A stretch of DNA of 52,375 bases from an uncultured Bacteriovoracaceae bacterium (GCA_938034385.1 CALHLC010000037.1:1-52375), one strand, 5' to 3'. Counted from the stretch's first letter, positions 13,995 through 35,958 are shown. Numbers and translations are program-made. Notes: generated by a model from the sequence alone, not told the origin.

Positions 13995-13997
13995 AGA

Positions 13998-14020
13998 GTC
14001 TATTTTATAGACATTCTTTG
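13998..14020 (+). terminator. Weak hairpin after pepN
   Basis: GTCTAT-TTT-ATAGAC is a perfect 6-bp stem starting four bases after the pepN stop, but the following ATTCTTTG has only a short T-run. A related hairpin, GTCTATT-TA-ATAGGC, recurs near 14085. It may be a weak terminator. Confidence 0.35.
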
Positions 14021-14102
14021 AAAGTTCTACTTTGACTGCAAAGCTTCACTTCTATTTACGCTAGAATTGCACATCTTCATTTTCAGTCTATTTAATAGGC
14101 CG

Positions 14103-14125
14103 CTCTATATACTTTACATATAGAG
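14103..14125 (+). promoter_or_regulatory. Leader hairpin before the 703-residue secreted protein gene
   Basis: CTCTATAT-ACTTTAC-ATATAGAG is a perfect 8-bp stem with a 7-base loop, followed by a purine-rich GGATGAATG. It lies about 75 bases ahead of the start codon and is not followed by Ts, so a leader structure or protein-binding dyad is more likely than a terminator. Confidence 0.4.
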
Positions 14126-14197
14126 GATGAATGATTTACAGAAGTAGAGGAAAATTTTAGAACATATAGCGTAATTAGCTTAACAAGGAGAATTTTA

Positions 14198-16309
14198 ATG
14201 AAATTATTAATTTTAATGTGCTTAATGGTAAGTACACAACTGTTTTCTCAAGTGAAAAACATTCAGATCAAAGAACTAGTAAATGGTCGAATTTTAGTTG
14301 AGAGTGATAGAGGATTGAAGAATGTATCTAAACTTCCATTTGTTTGGTATGAGCTTGTTTTAAAGCATTCAAAGTATAAATCATATGACGTGGTAGTTAT
14401 TCCAGCAAAATTAAACTCTGATGGAAATCTATGGGATAATGATACTAACCTTTCTGCTGATAATAATTTCAAATTAAAATATACATTAAGCGATGAGCAT
14501 TCGGAGTTATTTAAGTTAAATTCTTATAGTCTTCAAATTGCTCTTTATAGTTCTAATAAGACTTATAATACAGGGGATATTAGATCGTATACAAACTATA
14601 AAGCATATCAAGATCTAGGATCTACAGATCCTGTACCAGCACCACCGACACCTCCAACTCCTCCAAGGCCAACACCAACCCCTCCAAGACCAACCCCTCC
14701 AAGACCAACGCCTCCTTCACCGCCGACACCTCCAACACCGACTCCAATTAATAGAACAGAGATCTCTAATCGTGCTAAAAGTGCAGCAAGAGATTATATT
14801 TCAGAAAGATGGGCGAAGTATTCAGAAATTGAAACAATAAGAAGATCATACTTTGAAGGTTTTAAAAGTGAAATGAATACTCAGCCAAGTAGATCTAGTG
14901 TTAGCAATATAACTAATAAAGCAAGAACAGCTGGGACTCAAAGAGCTAAAAGTAATTTGAATTCTATCAATTTCAAGAATGAAGTAAGTAGTGCAGCTTA
15001 CAATTATGTTAAGTCTAAATTTTTAAAGGCAACAAATTCAGGAGCAGGAATTCCAAGTATTAGTACTACTATTTCAAAAGTAAGTGTTCCGAGCAAATAT
15101 AATTCAGCTAATTACGCTCCTTTGAAAAATAAGTATAGCGTAAATGAATCAATTTACTCAGACTCAGAGTTTAATAAATTTTTTGATGCTTCTGCAATCT
15201 CAGTTAATGAGCTTAAAAAAACCTATACTAATAACTTAGAGAGATTTAGTGGTGACTTAGCATTGAGAAGATACTTATCTACATCTAGAAGTTATTACAG
15301 TAGTCTTGGAAGTGAAGGAAAAGAAGTTTTTAAAACAGCTTTTACAACTCAAGCAAGACGAGATTTAGATAATAGGAAAAGAAAATATTATTATTGGGTA
15401 GATAGAAGATCTAGAGATAAAGGGAAAAATATTGCGATTGACTATTATCAAGTTGCAAAGTTAAACACTATTGCTGCTGCTGAGTTTAATGCAAGCTTGA
15501 GAGCAAACTTTAATAATCAGTTTGTTCAAAAGTATAAAGCAGCATACTCAACTTCAACTAGCAATTATTTTTATAACTTTAAAAATAACCCAGTTATTAT
15601 TCTAGATAGCTCTAAGGTTTCTATTCAAGGTACTCCCGCCCCAGGTGCTTCGCTTAATTTATCGTTCTCTAATGGATTTATTAAAAACATCGGAGGAGTG
15701 GCCCTTGTTGGAAGTACAACCAACTTCAGAACAAGTTCAAATGATTTAAGAACTCAAGTCAGCAGTGATCAAAATGATCCAATTGATAGTTTAAGTGTAT
15801 CTGGTGCTACTAATCTTCCAGGTTTTTTAACGATCTCTGAAAGTATTAATATTGATAATGCTCAGAATTTCACTTTAGAAATATCTTTAAAAGGAACATC
15901 TAGAGCAGGTAAGACGATTTCTGAAAAAATCACTAAAGAGATTGCTGTAAGCTTTAATAATATTCTTGCATCTTTGTTAGATGGTAGTGTTGCAGGCGGA
16001 GAGGAAAAATTAGCAAGTGTTTTAATCAAAGAGTTTCAACAAGCAATTGATGCTAAACAAGGAATTTATGTAAAGGATTACAAAGTACAAAAGTCAGATG
16101 GAAGAACTGAGGCAAAGTCTAAATTAGGTAGGCTTTATATTTATTTTAGAGATAATGCTGATTCTGTACAAAAAGAAGCAATCAAGAGAGTTATCAGTGA
16201 GTTTAGAAATTCTGCTGAATTTAGCAAAACTAGGTATTGGGTAAAGGGTCCAACTAATTATTATAGTAAGAAATATATTAAAAAATATTTTGATTTAATG
16301 AATATATAA
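14198..16309 (+). CDS. Secreted protein with Pro-rich hinge, paralogue A
   Basis: This 703-residue protein begins with a signal peptide (about residues 1-18, cleavage near LFSQ). An N-terminal beta-rich domain spans about 20-143. A proline-rich hinge (about 145-183) follows, built from PTPP and PRPTPP units. A domain of about 515 residues then matches the next gene along its whole length. That domain starts helical (ARDYISERWAKY), is rich in Tyr, Arg and Ser, has a GTPAPGA segment leading into beta structure near 480, and ends KKYFDLMNI. No known family is recognised. AAGGAG precedes the ATG. It is probably surface-exposed or released. Confidence 0.75.
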   Translation: MKLLILMCLMVSTQLFSQVKNIQIKELVNGRILVESDRGLKNVSKLPFVWYELVLKHSKYKSYDVVVIPAKLNSDGNLWDNDTNLSADNNFKLKYTLSDEHSELFKLNSYSLQIALYSSNKTYNTGDIRSYTNYKAYQDLGSTDPVPAPPTPPTPPRPTPTPPRPTPPRPTPPSPPTPPTPTPINRTEISNRAKSAARDYISERWAKYSEIETIRRSYFEGFKSEMNTQPSRSSVSNITNKARTAGTQRAKSNLNSINFKNEVSSAAYNYVKSKFLKATNSGAGIPSISTTISKVSVPSKYNSANYAPLKNKYSVNESIYSDSEFNKFFDASAISVNELKKTYTNNLERFSGDLALRRYLSTSRSYYSSLGSEGKEVFKTAFTTQARRDLDNRKRKYYYWVDRRSRDKGKNIAIDYYQVAKLNTIAAAEFNASLRANFNNQFVQKYKAAYSTSTSNYFYNFKNNPVIILDSSKVSIQGTPAPGASLNLSFSNGFIKNIGGVALVGSTTNFRTSSNDLRTQVSSDQNDPIDSLSVSGATNLPGFLTISESINIDNAQNFTLEISLKGTSRAGKTISEKITKEIAVSFNNILASLLDGSVAGGEEKLASVLIKEFQQAIDAKQGIYVKDYKVQKSDGRTEAKSKLGRLYIYFRDNADSVQKEAIKRVISEFRNSAEFSKTRYWVKGPTNYYSKKYIKKYFDLMNI
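14630..14746 (+). repeat. Proline-rich hinge repeat
   Basis: Degenerate repeats of CCAACCCCTCCAAGA type encode about 39 residues of PTPP/PRPTPP units that separate two folded domains. The composition (C-rich, G-poor) stands out against the AT-rich surroundings. Confidence 0.75.
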
Positions 16310-16318
16310 TTTACTTAT

Positions 16319-16358
16319 CCAGCTCTAGTGAGCAATGCTTACTGGAGCTGTTTTTTTA
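16319..16358 (+). terminator. Terminator after paralogue A
   Basis: CAGCTC-AGT-AGC pairs, with three mismatches, with GCT-ACT-GAGCTG, followed by seven Ts. It is a strong rho-independent terminator, so the two paralogues are transcribed separately. Confidence 0.85.
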
Positions 16359-16406
16359 ACCATTGCTTACAGAGAAATTTACCTAAGTCAAAAAATAGTC
16401 CTTTAA

Positions 16407-16519
16407 ACTTCCTCCTGAAATTCCTAAGAAATATTATTTAGATGCTTACGAAATGACGGCCTTCTCTTCTGAGGAAGTCTTATATCTCAAGGTTTCTCTA
16501 TGCAAGTGATATTCGAATA
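16407..16519 (+). promoter_or_regulatory. Leader region of paralogue B with inverted repeats
   Basis: The gap between the terminator and paralogue B holds ACTTCCTC (16407-16414) complementary to GAGGAAGT (16471-16478), which would close a loop of about 56 bases. Nearer the gene is a 12-base palindrome ATATTCGAATAT (16508-16519). No clear -35/-10 pair stands out. These are candidate regulatory structures only. Confidence 0.3.
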
Positions 16520-16567
16520 TAGATAATGTTTTCTAAACTTCCACTGATGAATCTAAAGGAGGATTTA

Positions 16568-18208
16568 ATGAAATTAATACTTTCGATGTGCTTGTTAATC
16601 AGCCACCTAGTCTTTTCACAATCAAGTAATACAACAACCACTAATAATGCAAAAGATATTATAGCTCGGGCCCAAATAGCAGCAGAAGATTTTATTTCGG
16701 AGCGTTGGTCTAAGTACGTGAAAATTGAAAATAAGAGAAAGTCATATTTTCAAGGTTTCAGAAGAGAGATGAACTCAGAGCCTAGTATGATTCGTCGTGC
16801 CGAAGTCGCTTATAGAGCTCAGAGAGAAGGTGCTTTAAGAGCAAATAGTACTTTGAACTCTATTGATTTTAATGATGAAGTAAATGATGTTGCGTATTCA
16901 AATGTTAAGTTACAGTTTCTTCAAGCAACAGATTCAGGAAGAGGAGTTATACCTGAATTAAATACAAATATTTCATCGATAAACATCCCTAGTCATTATA
17001 ATACTGGAACTTATATTCCTTTAGAGAGTCAATATACTTTTACTGAAGCAATTTTTTCAGATAAAAGCTTTAATCGATTTTTTAATGCCAAGGCAATTTC
17101 CATTGAAGAGTTAACAAAAAATTATAAAAATTATTTGGATAAATTTACAGCTAGTTTGTCACTAACAAAGTATTTATCCACATCAAGAAATTATTATAAT
17201 AGTTTAGATGAAGAGGGGAGAGATATTTTTAAAAAGGCTTTCAAGAATAAAGCGAGAGTTGACTTAGATTATAGAAGAAGAAATCATTATTACCGTCCAA
17301 ATCGAAGAGCTAGGGAGCATGGAGAAGAGATTGCAATTGATTATTACCAAGTTAAAAAATTAAACATTTTAGCTCAAGATGAATTTAATCTAAGTTTGAG
17401 AGAAAACTTTGATGATATATATAGAAGAAGCTATGAGTCTGCTTATGCCATCTCGTCTGAAAAGTATTATTACTCGTTTAGAGATAATCCTGTAATTTTA
17501 TTAGATGAGAGTAAAATATCTACTCGAGGAACACCGGCTCCAGGAGCAAAACTAGATCTATATTTATTAAGTGGTTTTATTAAAAATATTGGGGGCGTAA
17601 GCTTGAGAACAAGTACAACAAATTTCTCAACAACTTCCAACCAACTAAGTACTGAAGTTTCCAGTAGAGAAAATGATTCTATTGAAGCGTTAAGTATCTC
17701 TGAAGTACTTGATTTACCAAGGTTTTTATCAATTTCAGAAAATATAAGTATTAATGATGACCAGATCTTTGAGTTAAAGATTAACTTGAAGGGAGAATCA
17801 AGGTCTGGAAAATTAATTTCAAAGCTAGCATCTAAACCAGTAGTCGTGAGTTTTGCTAGTATTGTTAAACATTTACTGAGTGGAGTTGTTGTTGATGGAG
17901 AGCAAAAACTTTCAGATGTTATGATTTCAGAATTTCAAGTGGCCATTGATTCTAAGAAAAATGTCTATATTAAGGACTATAAAAATTTAAAAGCTGGCCC
18001 AAAATCAACTGCGAACTCTAGATTAGGAAAATTATACTTATATTTTAGAGACGGGGCGAATTCTAATGAGAAAGAGGGGATTACGAGGGTTCTTAATATA
18101 TTTAAAAAATCCAATGTATACAAAAAAAGAAGGTATTGGTTAAGAAGCCCTACTAAGTATAATACAAAAAAATATGCTACCAAGTATTTTGAATTGATGA
18201 ATATATAA
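16568..18208 (+). CDS. Secreted protein, paralogue B
   Basis: A 546-residue protein with a signal peptide (MKLILSMCLLISHLVFSQ) and then directly the large domain of the preceding gene; it lacks that gene's beta domain and Pro-rich hinge. Matching landmarks run in the same order: FISERWSKY, GFRREMNSEP, YLSTSRNYYNSL, AIDYYQVKKLN, RGTPAPGA, SGFIKNIGGV, RLGKLYLYFRD and KYFELMNI. AGGAGG lies 6 bases before this ATG, whereas a longer upstream frame has none. It arose from a tandem duplication followed by gain or loss of the N-terminal module. Function unknown. Confidence 0.75.
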   Translation: MKLILSMCLLISHLVFSQSSNTTTTNNAKDIIARAQIAAEDFISERWSKYVKIENKRKSYFQGFRREMNSEPSMIRRAEVAYRAQREGALRANSTLNSIDFNDEVNDVAYSNVKLQFLQATDSGRGVIPELNTNISSINIPSHYNTGTYIPLESQYTFTEAIFSDKSFNRFFNAKAISIEELTKNYKNYLDKFTASLSLTKYLSTSRNYYNSLDEEGRDIFKKAFKNKARVDLDYRRRNHYYRPNRRAREHGEEIAIDYYQVKKLNILAQDEFNLSLRENFDDIYRRSYESAYAISSEKYYYSFRDNPVILLDESKISTRGTPAPGAKLDLYLLSGFIKNIGGVSLRTSTTNFSTTSNQLSTEVSSRENDSIEALSISEVLDLPRFLSISENISINDDQIFELKINLKGESRSGKLISKLASKPVVVSFASIVKHLLSGVVVDGEQKLSDVMISEFQVAIDSKKNVYIKDYKNLKAGPKSTANSRLGKLYLYFRDGANSNEKEGITRVLNIFKKSNVYKKRRYWLRSPTKYNTKKYATKYFELMNI

Positions 18209-18408
18209 TCTAAAAGAGATACAGCTCTAGTGATTTTCGTCTCTAGGGCTATAAACCTTACTGTCTAAAACTTAAACACCTATCAAAGAAATGTACATTA
18301 GTTTTTCAACTAAACAGCTAAGTAACTAATTTTATTAATAAAAAATCGAAATAACTCTGGCCTCTAACTTGCAACCTAGTATGTAAGTTTTACATTGGAG
18401 GAGAGAAC

Positions 18409-19953
18409 ATGAAAAACATTTTGAACATTTTATTAACAGGTCTAATTTTTACATCTTGTGTAAATGAAAGACTAGAAGAAGAAACTAAAATTACACCAGT
18501 TCCACAATCAACTCAAGAATCAAGATTCTTAGAAGATTCAATCGTTGATGTTGGTGAATTAAATGATGAAAATGACTTCACTTATAATATTAAAATTGCT
18601 GATGAGGATAATGGTGTTAACGGTGAATTAGAAGAAGGAATTAGATACAGCGTTATGGGTACTACAGTTCTTGCTTCAGTAAGCATTGATAATAACTTTG
18701 AAAACATTGTTTATAAGTTAAAAGAAGCTAAGTTAGCAAGCTTTTTAGATAAATCTGAATTAAGTGATAAAATTGAAATTTATAAAACAGATGAAATTAC
18801 AGGTAAAGTTGTAAGTAGATTTTTTGTAGATGTTAACGGAACAGTTTTAGTTGAAGAGACAGAAATTACTCCTGTTGATCCTATTAATCCAGTTGATCCA
18901 ATTGATCCAGTTTCAGGTAGAGTAACTGCAGAAGGTACTTTCGTAGCTGAAGATGCAGAACAATACTTAGATTTATGTACTAGCTATGCTGCAGAACAAG
19001 GTTCAGCTTTAGAAGCAGTTTATAAGCACAACAGAAGATGGCCAGCTAAAGATAGAGCAGCTTGTTCTTTATCAAGTTGTTATGGAATGGCTAAAGATGG
19101 TAAGAAATTCGAAACAGCTGAAAAAATCTATAAGAGACAAGGTGTAAGACATAACGATGAGAAGTTAGAAAGACTTTGTTACGATTCGAGTAAATCAGTA
19201 AGTTTAAACACTCAAATTGTTAACCTTGATAAAGATTTCTTGAAAGATGGTCTATTAAAAATTGATCTTGATGAATCAATGGATAAAATTATTGACTATA
19301 CTGCAAGCTCTGATTTTTTTACTGAGATCACTAGTGGTAAAGATGCTAACTCTGCTCTTACTACAATAGTTACAAATGAGAGGTTTGTAGTAAGAGATAG
19401 TATGATTAAAAATATTACTATGAATTATGAAGTATTAAACTATGAAAACCTTCAAGCAGATGTTTATGTTCATGACTCAATCGCTATTCAATTTAAAAGA
19501 ACTTCAGATGAATCAGTAGCTCATGAAATTATTGTAAATCTTGTTTTTAGATCTCAAGGTGATAATAGCTATATTTTAAGAGATGAAATAAATGTAGATG
19601 CTTCTTACAATAAATACAAAGCATTTGGTCACGGAAGAAAGATTGAAGATATAGTTGGCGAAAAAGTAAAAATAACTGATTTAGCTACATCTCTTAAAGG
19701 TTATACTGTAGAGGAAATAGAGTGTGTAGCTATAGATTGGGATAATAAAGAGTACGAATTTACTGTTAATCCTGCTGGAGAGCACTTAAGTATAGGTGGA
19801 TTTCCAGATAGAGAAGCATTAAGTAAATTTGACTTCAAAAAATGGGGAAATAGAAGAGTAAAAGTTGAATGTAGATCTGGATTATTTGAAAATGAAGATG
19901 GACAGACTTTAGAAATTCACGGTGACTACCCATTACAATTTAAATTTGATTAA
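18409..19953 (+). CDS. Large lipoprotein with PVDP linker, unknown
   Basis: This 514-residue protein has a type II signal peptide: MKNILNILLTGLIFTSC gives a lipidated cysteine at residue 17. An acidic N-terminal domain (about 20-155) is followed by a short linker of PVDP/PIDP units. A cysteine-containing domain follows (about 165-265, with CSLSSCYGMAKDG), then a beta-rich C-terminal half. The domain order, folded domain then proline/acid linker then larger domain, echoes paralogue A upstream, though I see no sequence match. GGAGGAG precedes the ATG. No family recognised. Confidence 0.7.
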   Translation: MKNILNILLTGLIFTSCVNERLEEETKITPVPQSTQESRFLEDSIVDVGELNDENDFTYNIKIADEDNGVNGELEEGIRYSVMGTTVLASVSIDNNFENIVYKLKEAKLASFLDKSELSDKIEIYKTDEITGKVVSRFFVDVNGTVLVEETEITPVDPINPVDPIDPVSGRVTAEGTFVAEDAEQYLDLCTSYAAEQGSALEAVYKHNRRWPAKDRAACSLSSCYGMAKDGKKFETAEKIYKRQGVRHNDEKLERLCYDSSKSVSLNTQIVNLDKDFLKDGLLKIDLDESMDKIIDYTASSDFFTEITSGKDANSALTTIVTNERFVVRDSMIKNITMNYEVLNYENLQADVYVHDSIAIQFKRTSDESVAHEIIVNLVFRSQGDNSYILRDEINVDASYNKYKAFGHGRKIEDIVGEKVKITDLATSLKGYTVEEIECVAIDWDNKEYEFTVNPAGEHLSIGGFPDREALSKFDFKKWGNRRVKVECRSGLFENEDGQTLEIHGDYPLQFKFD

Positions 19954-31269: not shown

Positions 31270-34200
31270 ATGATTTTTTTGCGGTACGTATGTTGTTTAT
31301 TTCTGCTTTTAGGTTGTCAGGATGCAAGTTTTTACCAAGACGGTGTTGCAACAGGTGAGATTAACTTACCGGATAATCGAGAGCAAGATGAAGATGATAA
31401 TATCATTGATCAATTTAGAAACTGTGATGACCTTAATCACGGTGAATCTATTGATTTAATGTTATTTGAAAAACAGGTTGTCGAATTTGGCGAGCAGTGT
31501 AAAGAGGTAGATGTTACAAAGTCATGTGATGATGGAATAGTTTCTTATTCATCTGAAGGTGAACTAGTTAATATTGATGATTATTTTGAAGAGTGTGAAG
31601 AAACAGATGCTCTAGCATGTGGGAATATTCCTCATGGTGGGACAATGACACGAGTTAGATTTCAGGATTCACAAGTTGCCTTTGGTGGAACGTGTGAAAG
31701 TGAAACTCAGACAAGTGTTTGTTATAATGGATCTCTTTCAGATTTCTCTGGAAGTTATAGTTTTGAAACTTGTAATGTCGGTGATGCTAAGTCATGTGAT
31801 GGTTTAGGACACGGAAGTAGTGAAACTCGAACAAGGTTTGAAACTCCTACAGTAGTTTATGGTGGAACTTGTAACTCTGAAGAACAAACAAGAACCTGTA
31901 ATAATGGAACTGTTTCAGATTGGTCTGGAACATTTACTAATACAACTTGTATGGTAGAGGATGCCAAATCATGTGGAGATACAGCTCACAATGGAGTTGA
32001 ATCAAGAACAATGTATCAAGATTCTGAGGTTGAAAACGGAGGACAATGTGTTTCTGAGCAACAAACCAGAACTTGTACTAATGGTGACCTTTCAGCATGG
32101 TCAGGTAGTTTTAAGAATGAAGCTTGTATAGTTGGAGATCCTAAGGATTGTGGAGATTTATCTCACCTAGGAACTGAGACCAGAGTGAGGTATGAGAAAT
32201 CTCTAGTAGGATTTGATTTAGAATGCCAGAGTGAAGAGCAAAACAGAACTTGTAATGACGGGACATTATCGGATTGGTCTGGATCATATACTAAAGATTC
32301 ATGTGTTAATGAAGACCCAAAAAATTGTGGAGATTTAAATCACAATAGTTCTGAAACAAGAATAATGTTTAAAAGCGAGAAAGTAAGCCATGGTGGACTA
32401 TGTGAGTCTGAAACTCAAAGTAGAGAGTGCCATAATGGTGAACTTTCAGATTGGACAGGAAGCTATACTCAAGAGAGCTGTCAGGTTGAAGATCCAAAAA
32501 ACTGTGGAGATATTCAACATGGTGAAAGTGAAGATAGATTAAGGTATGAATCAATCTCAGTTAATTTTGGTGAAACTTGTAGTTCAGAAAAACAAGTAAG
32601 AACTTGTTCAGATGGAGAAATGAGTGAATGGACAGGATCATATGAAAATTCATCTTGTATAGTCAAAGATCCGCTGACTTGTGGAGATACAGCTCACAAT
32701 GGTGAAGAAACAAGAACTATGTTTAAGAAATCAAGCGTAGATCATGGTGATGTATGTGAGTCTGAAAAACAAGTAAGAACTTGTTCTAATGGAACAATGA
32801 GTGGATGGTCAGGAAGCTTTACTGAAGTTTCTTGTATTGTTAAAGATCCAGCTGCATGTGGAAATACTACAAGTGGATCAGTTGAAACAAGAACTAGATA
32901 TTTAGAAAGTACAGTAGCTTATGGTGGTAAGTGTGAATCACAAGTTCAAGAGAGACTATGTACTAATGGAAGCTTTGGAAACTGGAGCGGAACTTATACT
33001 AATGAGTCTTGTGAAGTTGAAGCAGCTAAGAATTGTGGAAATATTGAACATGGTGGTTCTGAGAGTAGAACGAGATTTGAAAACTCAATTGTTGGATTTG
33101 GAGATCAGTGTAAGTCTGAGCTTCAACAAAGAACTTGTAACAATGGTGAATTAGGGAAATGGTCAGGAAGCTATACTCACCTTGATTGCTCTGTAGATGT
33201 AGCTAAGAGTTGTGGTGATACAGCCGACGGAGATTATGAGTTTAGAAAGAAATATAAGTCAGAAGTTGCAAATTTTGGTGAAGTATGTGAGCAAGAAGAG
33301 CAAAAGAGACAATGTATTAATGGGAACTTCAGTGAGTGGAGTGGATCGTTTGAAAAAGATAAATGTGAAGCTGCTAAACCGAAAAATTGTGGAGATGTTA
33401 TTCACGGTGGAATAGAAGTTCGAGTAAGATATGAAACTGACGTAATTAATAAAGGTGAATCTTGTAAATCAGAAGAGCAAAAAAGAGAATGTGTTAATGG
33501 TGAATTTGGTTCATGGTCAGGTAGTTATGAAGAAGAAACATGTAGAAGAATAAGAAATTGTGCTTTTAATGGCGGTATGATTCCTCACGGTGAGAATGCA
33601 TCAAGAGTAAGATTTAGATCAGAGCTTGTTCCTTCTGGAGAGACTTGTGAAAAAGAAGAGCAACTTGCATTATGTGAAGATGGTGTAATTGGTGATTTTG
33701 ATGGAAGTTATGAGCATGAAACATGTGATGTTAAAGGTGAAGAATGTCATAAAGGTAAAGTACTAACTATTACTATCGATAAAGATGGTGACGGTTTAGG
33801 TGATACAGAACCTGTTGAGATAATTTCTTACAAAGGTCAGTACAATAATGCTGATAACTATAACTATTACTCATGGTCGGCACATCCACATATTGGGCCA
33901 AACCCAGATGGATATAAGTCACATGCATACCTTTATGAAGGACCTGATGGATTATCATTCCAGTTCTACTTCAATAAAGATAAAATTAAAGGAGAGCAGT
34001 ACAATGGATCTCCAAATAGTGTAGTAAAGCTTGATATCTTAACTGAAGGTAATCACTTTGATGATGCTGTAATCTTAGCTGATGATAAAAATGAACTTAA
34101 GTATAAAGGTGAAGTAAATGGACAAAACCTTTATGAAGGAAGATTTCACTACTGGTATAATACTGATGGTGGTGTAATTGGACCGTTTAATGGGGAAGAT

Positions 34201-35958
34201 TATAAAATTATCGTTAAGCCGATTGAGAGTTATGAATTATACAAGGTATACGGTAAAAATGAGAGAAGAGATGCTTTCAATGGAGCAACTTTTTACTCAG
34301 CTGATGGAACTGTAGTAGAGCTTGATGATAAAGATGGAAACTTTCACTCTTATATTATTCAGTTCAAAGAAGAAATGACTTGTGAAGATCATGATGAGCA
34401 AGAAGTTGCTGATATTGGTTGTGCTGATGGAAGCAGAGAAGGATTTAAAAACCTAGAGACATTTGCTGATATTGCAGGTTGTGCGGGTGGATTTTCTAAT
34501 GAAGGTGTTTTACCTCAACATAGATATAGAGATGAATCATGTAAAGGAATGGGGAACGATTCAAAGAATCCAAATGGTGAAGGATGTGGTATTAGAAACA
34601 TCTGTGCTAAAGGATGGGAAGTTCTTCCAACTGTTTCTGTTTTATCTAAACTAACGGATGGGAAATATTGTCATGCAATGGAGCAAGATGATTTAACTGG
34701 AAATATTGCTTTCGTTACAGGTGTAACGAGTTTTGGATGGTCAAAAGTTTATGATAAAGACGAAGACCTTTTAAATGCAATTTTAAGTTATGAAGATGAG
34801 AGAGAGAATTACCTTGCAACAGGAGCTAAGAATTATAAAAATCATGTAAATGATTTATTTTACTGTGGAGGTAAGAAAGTTGCTCATGGACCATATAATA
34901 ATGCAAAAACTTACTTCACAACTTTTTCTCATAATGCTTGTAGAGGAGCTAGTAGCTTTTCAAGTTGTAAGTCTGCAGGTGGATTCTTTGAAGCTGACAG
35001 ATATAAACAAACACTTAATAGTGACATGACAAGAGGTCTTGCTAGTACTGACTTGAAAGGAGGAGGAGTAGTTTGTGTTAGGTCTTCTAAAGTTGATGAT
35101 CTTGAAATAGAAGATGATCTTAGAGGTGAAGAAGATGAAATGGAAAAACTTTTCTGTGAAAATATCTTAGTAAATGGAAGTTTTGAAGAAGGACACTCTT
35201 TAAGTGGAAACTCTTGGAATACTTTCGCTGAGGTCGATGGTTGGTATGCTGATAGTAGATATTCTGATGCTGCAATTGAAATTCAATGTGGTAATGCAGG
35301 GCCGTTAGCAACTCATGAAAGTTGTAACTTAGAACTAGATGCTCATCATGGTAAAAACGGATTTTCTGAAAGTGATGCAGGAGTTAATCAAGTGATTAAT
35401 CTTAAGAAAGGGAAAAGTTATAGCTTAAGTTTTGATATTTTTGCTAGATCATCAAAAGCATCAAGTAACGAAATGAGTATATTAGTAAATAATGAAGAAG
35501 TCTTCTCTTTTAAATCTAGTGATAAATCTTGGGTAAGAAAATCTATTACTTTTGTTGCTAATAGAAGTGGTAGACAAATTTTATCATTAAGAGGTAATAA
35601 GGATACAGATACTATTGGTGCAAACCTAGATAATATTGTTCTTGTTGAGAGTGAATGTATGGAGTCCCAAGAAGAAGATAGTGAAGTAGATGTAGATGCA
35701 ACAGCTCCAGTTGATCATCACTATAATCCAGAAAAGCCTAAGCAGAAAAGATTTAAACTATCTTGTGCTTCATTAAAGGCCGGAGAAAAGATTCCTGCAA
35801 AAACTTTATCTAAGGTTCCAGTTTCTCTAAGAAGCCATCTTAAAAAGCATGGTATTTCTTTAACTAAGCAATGTGGTAAATATAAGAGTTTTTATCTTGA
35901 TTATATTTTCAATGGTGAGTTAGAAGAATTATCAGTTCAACCAAATTACTATAAGTAA
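31270..35958 (+). CDS. Giant surface lipoprotein with Cys-rich repeats
   Basis: A 1562-residue protein with a type II signal peptide (LLLGC, lipidated C16). About 13 repeats of about 58 residues follow (about 45-820), each with four cysteines and the frame CGD..HG..ETR.RY...V.(F/Y)G..C.SE.Q.RTC.NG..S.WSGSY...C. A calcium-loop-like DKDGDGLGD begins a beta domain (about 835-1030). A second Cys-rich domain with GCADGSREGF and IAGCAGGF lies at about 1055-1270. A jelly-roll, carbohydrate-binding-like domain starts at NGSFEEG (about 1300-1460). Looks like an adhesin or cell-surface recognition protein. It is a single gene with its own long leader. Confidence 0.8.
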   Translation: MIFLRYVCCLFLLLGCQDASFYQDGVATGEINLPDNREQDEDDNIIDQFRNCDDLNHGESIDLMLFEKQVVEFGEQCKEVDVTKSCDDGIVSYSSEGELVNIDDYFEECEETDALACGNIPHGGTMTRVRFQDSQVAFGGTCESETQTSVCYNGSLSDFSGSYSFETCNVGDAKSCDGLGHGSSETRTRFETPTVVYGGTCNSEEQTRTCNNGTVSDWSGTFTNTTCMVEDAKSCGDTAHNGVESRTMYQDSEVENGGQCVSEQQTRTCTNGDLSAWSGSFKNEACIVGDPKDCGDLSHLGTETRVRYEKSLVGFDLECQSEEQNRTCNDGTLSDWSGSYTKDSCVNEDPKNCGDLNHNSSETRIMFKSEKVSHGGLCESETQSRECHNGELSDWTGSYTQESCQVEDPKNCGDIQHGESEDRLRYESISVNFGETCSSEKQVRTCSDGEMSEWTGSYENSSCIVKDPLTCGDTAHNGEETRTMFKKSSVDHGDVCESEKQVRTCSNGTMSGWSGSFTEVSCIVKDPAACGNTTSGSVETRTRYLESTVAYGGKCESQVQERLCTNGSFGNWSGTYTNESCEVEAAKNCGNIEHGGSESRTRFENSIVGFGDQCKSELQQRTCNNGELGKWSGSYTHLDCSVDVAKSCGDTADGDYEFRKKYKSEVANFGEVCEQEEQKRQCINGNFSEWSGSFEKDKCEAAKPKNCGDVIHGGIEVRVRYETDVINKGESCKSEEQKRECVNGEFGSWSGSYEEETCRRIRNCAFNGGMIPHGENASRVRFRSELVPSGETCEKEEQLALCEDGVIGDFDGSYEHETCDVKGEECHKGKVLTITIDKDGDGLGDTEPVEIISYKGQYNNADNYNYYSWSAHPHIGPNPDGYKSHAYLYEGPDGLSFQFYFNKDKIKGEQYNGSPNSVVKLDILTEGNHFDDAVILADDKNELKYKGEVNGQNLYEGRFHYWYNTDGGVIGPFNGEDYKIIVKPIESYELYKVYGKNERRDAFNGATFYSADGTVVELDDKDGNFHSYIIQFKEEMTCEDHDEQEVADIGCADGSREGFKNLETFADIAGCAGGFSNEGVLPQHRYRDESCKGMGNDSKNPNGEGCGIRNICAKGWEVLPTVSVLSKLTDGKYCHAMEQDDLTGNIAFVTGVTSFGWSKVYDKDEDLLNAILSYEDERENYLATGAKNYKNHVNDLFYCGGKKVAHGPYNNAKTYFTTFSHNACRGASSFSSCKSAGGFFEADRYKQTLNSDMTRGLASTDLKGGGVVCVRSSKVDDLEIEDDLRGEEDEMEKLFCENILVNGSFEEGHSLSGNSWNTFAEVDGWYADSRYSDAAIEIQCGNAGPLATHESCNLELDAHHGKNGFSESDAGVNQVINLKKGKSYSLSFDIFARSSKASSNEMSILVNNEEVFSFKSSDKSWVRKSITFVANRSGRQILSLRGNKDTDTIGANLDNIVLVESECMESQEEDSEVDVDATAPVDHHYNPEKPKQKRFKLSCASLKAGEKIPAKTLSKVPVSLRSHLKKHGISLTKQCGKYKSFYLDYIFNGELEELSVQPNYYK
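31406..33726 (+). repeat. 13 coding repeats, about 174 bases each
   Basis: Twelve clear copies and one degenerate first copy of a unit of about 58 codons. The DNA of neighbouring copies is diverged, with only short identical runs such as those around TGTGGAGAT. The array is therefore old and conserved at protein level rather than recently expanded. The last copy is the most different, with an insertion after its first cysteine. Confidence 0.85.

Follow-up and report, generated by a model that had tools for sequence, protein, structure and literature searches.

The window analyzed here is a 52,375-nucleotide stretch of DNA (GCA_938034385.1, CALHLC010000037.1:1-52375) from an uncultured Bacteriovoracaceae bacterium, whose genome (G000) is a 2.67-Mb assembly within the class Bacteriovoracia. 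It contains two adjacent plus-strand genes, open reading frames 1 and 2 (ORF1 and ORF2), that encode exported proteins with a shared body. Sequence comparison identifies them as tandem paralogs in the branch with a single immunoglobulin-like (Ig-like) domain of an exported protein family found across the phylum Bdellovibrionota; within this large family they form a divergent lineage. The genes and their parts are as follows:

14198-16309, plus strand: ORF1, intact frame, 703 amino acids (aa)
14185..14190, plus strand: ORF1 ribosome-binding site AAGGAG, from the sequence
14198..14251, plus strand: predicted ORF1 signal peptide, MKLLILMCLMVSTQLFS followed by Q, no lipobox, read from the sequence by eye
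14252..14623, plus strand: ORF1 N-terminal domain (N-domain), aa 19-142 (124 residues), mostly beta in a low-confidence model
14624..14743, plus strand: ORF1 Pro/Thr/Arg hinge TDPVPAPPTPPTPPRPTPTPPRPTPPRPTPPSPPTPPTPT, aa 143-182, 40 residues with 23 Pro and 10 Thr, disordered in the model
14744..16306, plus strand: ORF1 shared body, aa 183-703, 52% identical to ORF2
16526-18208, plus strand: ORF2 as listed, intact frame
16555..16562, plus strand: ORF2 ribosome-binding site AAAGGAGG, from the sequence
16568..16621, plus strand: predicted ORF2 signal peptide, MKLILSMCLLISHLVFS followed by Q, from the sequence, its DNA 71% identical to the ORF1 leader
16634..18205, plus strand: ORF2 shared body, lacking N-domain and hinge, from comparison with ORF1 and the family alignment

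For ORF2, translation probably begins 14 codons downstream of the listed start (16526). Because AAAGGAGG lies directly 5' of position 16568, and because translation from there parallels the ORF1 leader MKLLILMCLMVSTQLFSQ, we prefer 16568 as the start; the protein then reads MKLILSMCLLISHLVFSQ and is 546 aa long. The leaders of the two proteins align as a separate BLASTP match, and neither has a lipobox by eye; certain relatives (e.g., L095 and L128) begin like lipoproteins. The mature proteins contain no Cys and are basic (isoelectric point 9.5-9.8).

We used BLASTP to align the shared part of the two proteins and found 275/525 identities (52%) and 74% positives (540 bits), which bears out the original prediction of an exported paralogous pair with a common domain of about 520 residues. 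Identity by codon position was 68%, 72% and 51% at positions 1, 2 and 3, the second position being the most conserved and the third the least. With the NG86 method, the nonsynonymous distance (dN) was 0.36 and the synonymous distance (dS) 1.63, giving a dN/dS of ~0.22 with dS close to saturation. Based on this ratio and the codon-position pattern, both copies look to be kept under purifying selection.

A scan of genome contigs with a single protein gave no match, and a single-sequence search identified a relative in genome G074 only (28% identity across the whole body). Exported proteins of 700-830 aa matched a three-row profile weakly (E 1e-7 to 1e-3), and the aligned family members have collinear motifs over their full length. 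The iterated profile, which includes the ORF1 and ORF2 rows, identified members in 103 of 369 Bdellovibrionota genomes, representing 63 of 182 genera. We define this group here as the Bdellovibrionota exported helical-Ig family, and we treat a Gly/Ala-x3 ladder as a common but not defining feature of it. The shared domain, originally described as matching no known family, is not unique to the pair but a short version of a multidomain protein family that spans the phylum.

As an independent test, we built a profile from 28 other members, leaving out the ORF1, ORF2 and G074 sequences. ORF2 scored 27.7 bits against this profile, compared with a best score of 3.2 bits in 300 shuffles, and the G074 protein scored 38.5 bits. 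Scores for ORF1 alone were weak (9.7-16.4 bits, the lower value with the 28-member profile, compared with shuffles of up to 6.3 bits); its membership is tied in through ORF2 and G074. Profile-profile alignment with hhalign against the single-Ig relatives gave 98.8% probability (E 6e-17, 452 columns), so that, together with the ORF2 score, similarity extends over the full-length body profile. The order of motifs in the pair is also that of the family: a helix, an NNPV-type motif, an Ig-like sandwich with invariant N and G, and a helical C-terminus. In a tree of 31 members, subject to a long-branch warning throughout, the single-Ig and double-Ig proteins separate; the single-Ig group takes in the pair and the G074 protein (100/98), and within it ORF1 and ORF2 are sisters (100/99). 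The longest ladder is 3 steps in ORF1, ORF2 and the G074 protein, compared with 6-11 in the other 28 members; these three proteins form a ladder-less branch, and the pair has lost the ladder.

The single-Ig form occurs in two of the 129 genomes of the family-level set, G000 and G074. The nearest relative, from the Bacteriovoracia metagenome-assembled genome 3_bin.48 (G074; JAUHYH010000090.1, L003:1423-3066), is 548 aa long and, like ORF2, lacks both N-domain and ladder; unlike the pair, it is present as a single copy in another neighborhood, with a gene for an FtsK-type ATPase upstream. More distant single-Ig relatives, such as L138 (G190), L122 (G192), L125 (G270) and L126 (G348), have the layout of ORF1, with a leader, a small N-domain, usually a Pro-rich linker, one Ig-like domain and C-terminal helices; however, their N-domains are of other sequence types and their ladders have 8-9 steps as opposed to 3. 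Members of the double-Ig branch resemble the pair in having a leader, helices, a long helix, an NNPV-type start to the Ig-like region and a helical C-terminus; they differ in having two Ig-like domains, a ladder of 7-11 steps, a conserved Cys near the N-terminus and a long insert before the long helix. G000 itself also holds one such member, of 781 aa (G000:C19:89416-91680; L051:6369-8711). At L051:12078-13898, 3.4 kb downstream of that gene, is an open frame in which dozens of KRQR(D/E)ADA units precede a Tyr-rich region; it could be a repeat protein or an artifact of a repeat read in several frames.

Other members vary in architecture. A 1,223-aa protein (L130, G216:C338) has its N-terminal helical unit doubled, including the ladder and an A(V)DxG..P motif. 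Exported coiled-coil proteins of 1,230-1,250 aa (L056:3257-7006 and L057:1959-5654, in G030 and G037) match the family weakly at the long helix and Ig-like domain; the product of the next gene in both genomes is exported, contains a DTGFC motif and a distant HG, and looks subtilisin-like by eye, without a Pfam match. Among six relatives checked, no conserved neighbors were common across families. Two genomes from one genus (L142 and L147, in G192 and G190) have a single-Ig gene with a CarD-like gene on one side and, following it, ExbB/ExbD/TonB-like genes and then a TonB-dependent-receptor-like gene.

The mean predicted local distance difference test score (pLDDT) of the AlphaFold model of ORF1 rose from 42 with three rows to 75.5 with the family alignment, with most of the body at 85-97. 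This rise is the strongest independent sign that the family alignment is right; the three-sequence model (pLDDT 42) was kept out of the fold search. The body is predicted to contain the following parts:

14753..15040, plus strand: N-terminal helices of the body, aa 186-281, from the model; the ladder region of relatives, with the ladder lost in ORF1
15404..15586, plus strand: helix of 61 residues leading into the Ig-like domain, aa 403-463, from the model
15587..15952, plus strand: Ig-like beta sandwich, aa 464-585 (model residues 446-567), starting NNPVI, from the model and VIA-align
15953..16306, plus strand: C-terminal helical domain, aa 586-703 (helices 586-700), ending KKYFDLMNI, from the model

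Between the first two of these, the model has a mixed region from aa 281 to ~370 and then a helix at 372-397. VIA-align matched the sandwich to many Ig-like domains (Z ~10, range 9-10.5; 97-110 residues; root-mean-square deviation 2.1-2.8 A). Because the top matches tie among many unrelated Ig-like proteins, with no named family (transglutaminase barrels, alpha-2-macroglobulin domains or others) standing out, we read the match as one of fold and not of function. In Foldseek searches, no structure in PDB or in the viral set BFVD reached E 0.001. The anatomy is, we are confident, that of a signal peptide, an optional N-domain on a hinge, a helical bundle, a long helix, one Ig-like sandwich and a helical C-terminus. 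The KYFxLMNI ending described as conserved is common to ORF1 and ORF2, but the family alignment shows that the wider family lacks it.

The N-domain of ORF1 was modeled as strands (model residues 1-97) with pLDDT ~40. Searches for its relatives returned only chance-level matches in unrelated proteins, some containing stop codons, and hhalign gave probabilities of 0.1-0.2% against the N-domains of relatives, indicating no similarity. Most single-Ig relatives, and nearly all of those outside the family-level set, carry a leader, a small N-domain and a linker that is often Pro-rich, so ORF1 has the usual layout of the branch and ORF2 is stripped. Differing N-domain types precede one and the same body in these relatives, mostly by way of a Pro-rich linker, and BLAST places them in three groups, none of which includes the N-domain of ORF1. 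The N-domain and hinge, predicted to be an extra of the first gene, are confined to ORF1 within the pair, but they represent the layout usual in the single-Ig branch, where relatives show three or more other sequence types of N-domain. ORF2 may have lost the N-domain or ORF1 may have gained it; the G074 protein, which is the outgroup to the pair, is likewise without one.

Each gene is followed by a hairpin:

16320..16357, plus strand: ORF1 intrinsic terminator, stem 16320-16350 with 14 pairs, then seven T
18223..18250, plus strand: hairpin 3' of ORF2, its sequence akin to that of the ORF1 terminator stem, weaker and without a T tract

The ORF1 terminator (-22.9 kcal/mol, z -6.6) was graded strong. 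Both hairpins open with CAGCTCTAGTGA and have ATxCAGCTCTAGTGA in common, and they score above all 300 shuffles; based on the identical start and this score, the 3' flank was duplicated along with the gene. Comparison of the 5' flanks found similarity limited to the ribosome-binding site. The sequences and the tree place the duplication, 3' hairpin included, after the split from the G074 relative. Separate leaders and an ORF1 terminator, from which separate expression had been predicted, are present; however, promoter-like sites were at shuffle frequency (19 found vs. 19.2 expected, no excess), so it is only the terminator that points to separate expression.

Both genes and their flanks lie within one additional stretch of DNA:

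13995..18261, no strand assigned: extra segment of ~4.27 kb, identified by an empty site in sister genomes

The alignment of G000 with the closest sister genome (G068) ends at window position ~13984, at the end of a pepN-like aminopeptidase gene, and restarts at ~18262, with ~30 bp between these points in G068. In each of the other three members of the genus (G066, G067 and G068), the pepN-like gene, with identities of 87%, 65% and 61% (not in the order of the genomes named) to that in the window, is followed by a homolog of the downstream lipoprotein gene at a distance of 145-400 bp. The segment contains the pair, its flanks and nothing else. Because one event suffices for a gain in this lineage, whereas ancestral presence needs two or more losses, we favor a gain, and the segment is probably a recent insertion in this genome. 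We found no insertion sequence, no repeat and no clear target-site repeat at the segment ends, and GC content, both overall and at third codon positions, matches the window norm; the segment therefore bears no sign of its origin or route. ORF1 and ORF2 were not placed on any phage or plasmid record. The suggestion of a secreted system was not supported, as no system genes lie alongside the pair, and the adjoining pepN and genus-specific lipoprotein genes occur without it in the sister genomes. This lipoprotein gene (window 18409-19953) is restricted to the genus among the 129 genomes and has no Pfam match; a second, partial homolog is present elsewhere in each of the four genus genomes. Farther along the window (31270-35958), a 1,562-aa lipoprotein-like protein has a C-terminal stretch resembling DUF642/CBM_4_9 just below Pfam cutoffs.

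Searches of Pfam, NCBIfam, PHROGs and PDB sequences gave no match above any cutoff for ORF1 or ORF2. In agreement with the original prediction, these searches and the structure comparison assign the shared domain to no named enzyme or adhesin family. A match to BimA covered the proline stretch only (18.3 bits vs. 600), and matches to myeloperoxidase, DEC-1 and terminase were by chance or proline-rich. The family apparently has no name or description in the papers or libraries searched, which is not proof of absence; a lineage-specific survey of the phylum centers on enzymes (PMC11656739). Mosaic adhesive trimeric (MAT) fiber proteins of Bdellovibrio bacteriovorus also carry a small beta-rich domain directly after the leader (PMC10769870). 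However, MAT proteins are beta-helical trimeric fibers with C-terminal tips and an S74 or NS74 C-terminal region, whereas the ORF1 body is modeled as helical with one Ig-like sandwich; this fold speaks against MAT membership, and the comparison extends only to how the proteins might work. The family ladder resembles the GxxxG-repeat helices of FliH/YscL (PMC2674601) and gives weak NCBIfam FliH matches in 9 of 31 members (best E 6.8e-6). FliH is a cytosolic ATPase regulator, whereas ORF1 and ORF2 lack the ladder and have a leader; we therefore attribute the likeness to low complexity and do not place the pair in FliH/YscL.

We tentatively favor the interpretation that the two are exported proteins of elongated shape with a binding or scaffold function, ORF1 bearing a head and ORF2 being a headless copy, a plausible reading that falls somewhat short of probable. 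Sec would export both proteins, ordinary signal peptidase would cleave off their leaders, and the mature forms, elongated, basic and nonenzymatic, would have a binding or scaffolding role either in the periplasm or at the cell surface. Spacing and assembly of the molecule would fall to the helices and the Ig-like domain, the ORF1 N-domain on its Pro/Thr hinge would be an exchangeable recognition head, and ORF2, without a head, would act as a partner or as a copy used in assembly; the ORF1 terminator would allow the two to be made in different amounts. Several points weigh against this interpretation. "Head" is an analogy for a domain modeled at pLDDT ~40 with no sequence relative, and N-domain types track body clades and are not freely swapped. 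An Ig-like fold by itself implies no function, neither an anchor nor a secretion signal was seen beyond the leader, and we infer the destination, binding partner and assembly of both proteins, as well as any link to predation. A broader version, in which a conserved helical-Ig stalk presents varied small heads on proline hinges in recognition proteins across the phylum, species acquire head types as ready-made cassettes, and the window holds one cassette with its headless assembly partner, is speculative and improbable.

Alternatively, both proteins could stay soluble in the predator's own periplasm as structural or chaperone-like proteins and do nothing outside the cell, the two genes being a simple dosage duplication. 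The plain leader without a lipobox or visible surface anchor is consistent with this, as are weak Foldseek matches of the Ig-like part that include periplasmic fimbrial chaperones and the restriction of the family to part of the phylum, including many genera of uncertain lifestyle. We consider it unlikely, though a serious candidate: the hinged N-domain and its differing types in relatives suit an exposed protein better, and the patchy distribution suits a dispensable function. The patchy gain in one species, the basic character of both proteins and the predation known in the phylum would suit an effector delivered into prey or competitors, with the N-domain as the active or targeting part. 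However, no toxin, immunity or delivery gene lies beside the pair, no toxin family was matched, the N-domain is wholly missing from ORF2 and the G074 protein, and the long form also occurs outside any such context, all of which makes an effector distinctly improbable. An enzyme of new fold in the helical body, which belongs to no named family, is very improbable, since across the 31 members only one Asn and one Gly near the Ig-like domain are invariant, the near-invariant residues are Gly, Pro and Phe, and no pair of conserved Cys, His, Asp or Glu residues could form a catalytic site. We give hardly any credence to a neutral, decaying insert; although the segment is missing from all three sister genomes, the frames are open for 703 and 546 codons, the second codon position is the most conserved, dN/dS is about 0.2, and the ribosome-binding sites and hairpins are intact.

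ORF1 and ORF2 are useful in themselves, being an intact gain whose site is empty in sister genomes and a natural comparison of a protein that has the N-domain with one that lacks it. They are a ladder-less, duplicated variant of the family, and their main interest is as a way into it. The family is present in about a third of the sampled genera of a predator-rich phylum, yet it appears in none of the four profile and structure libraries searched. Its members now form a defined set of exported proteins that can be searched for by profile and, in culturable predators, tested for localization, timing and deletion phenotype.

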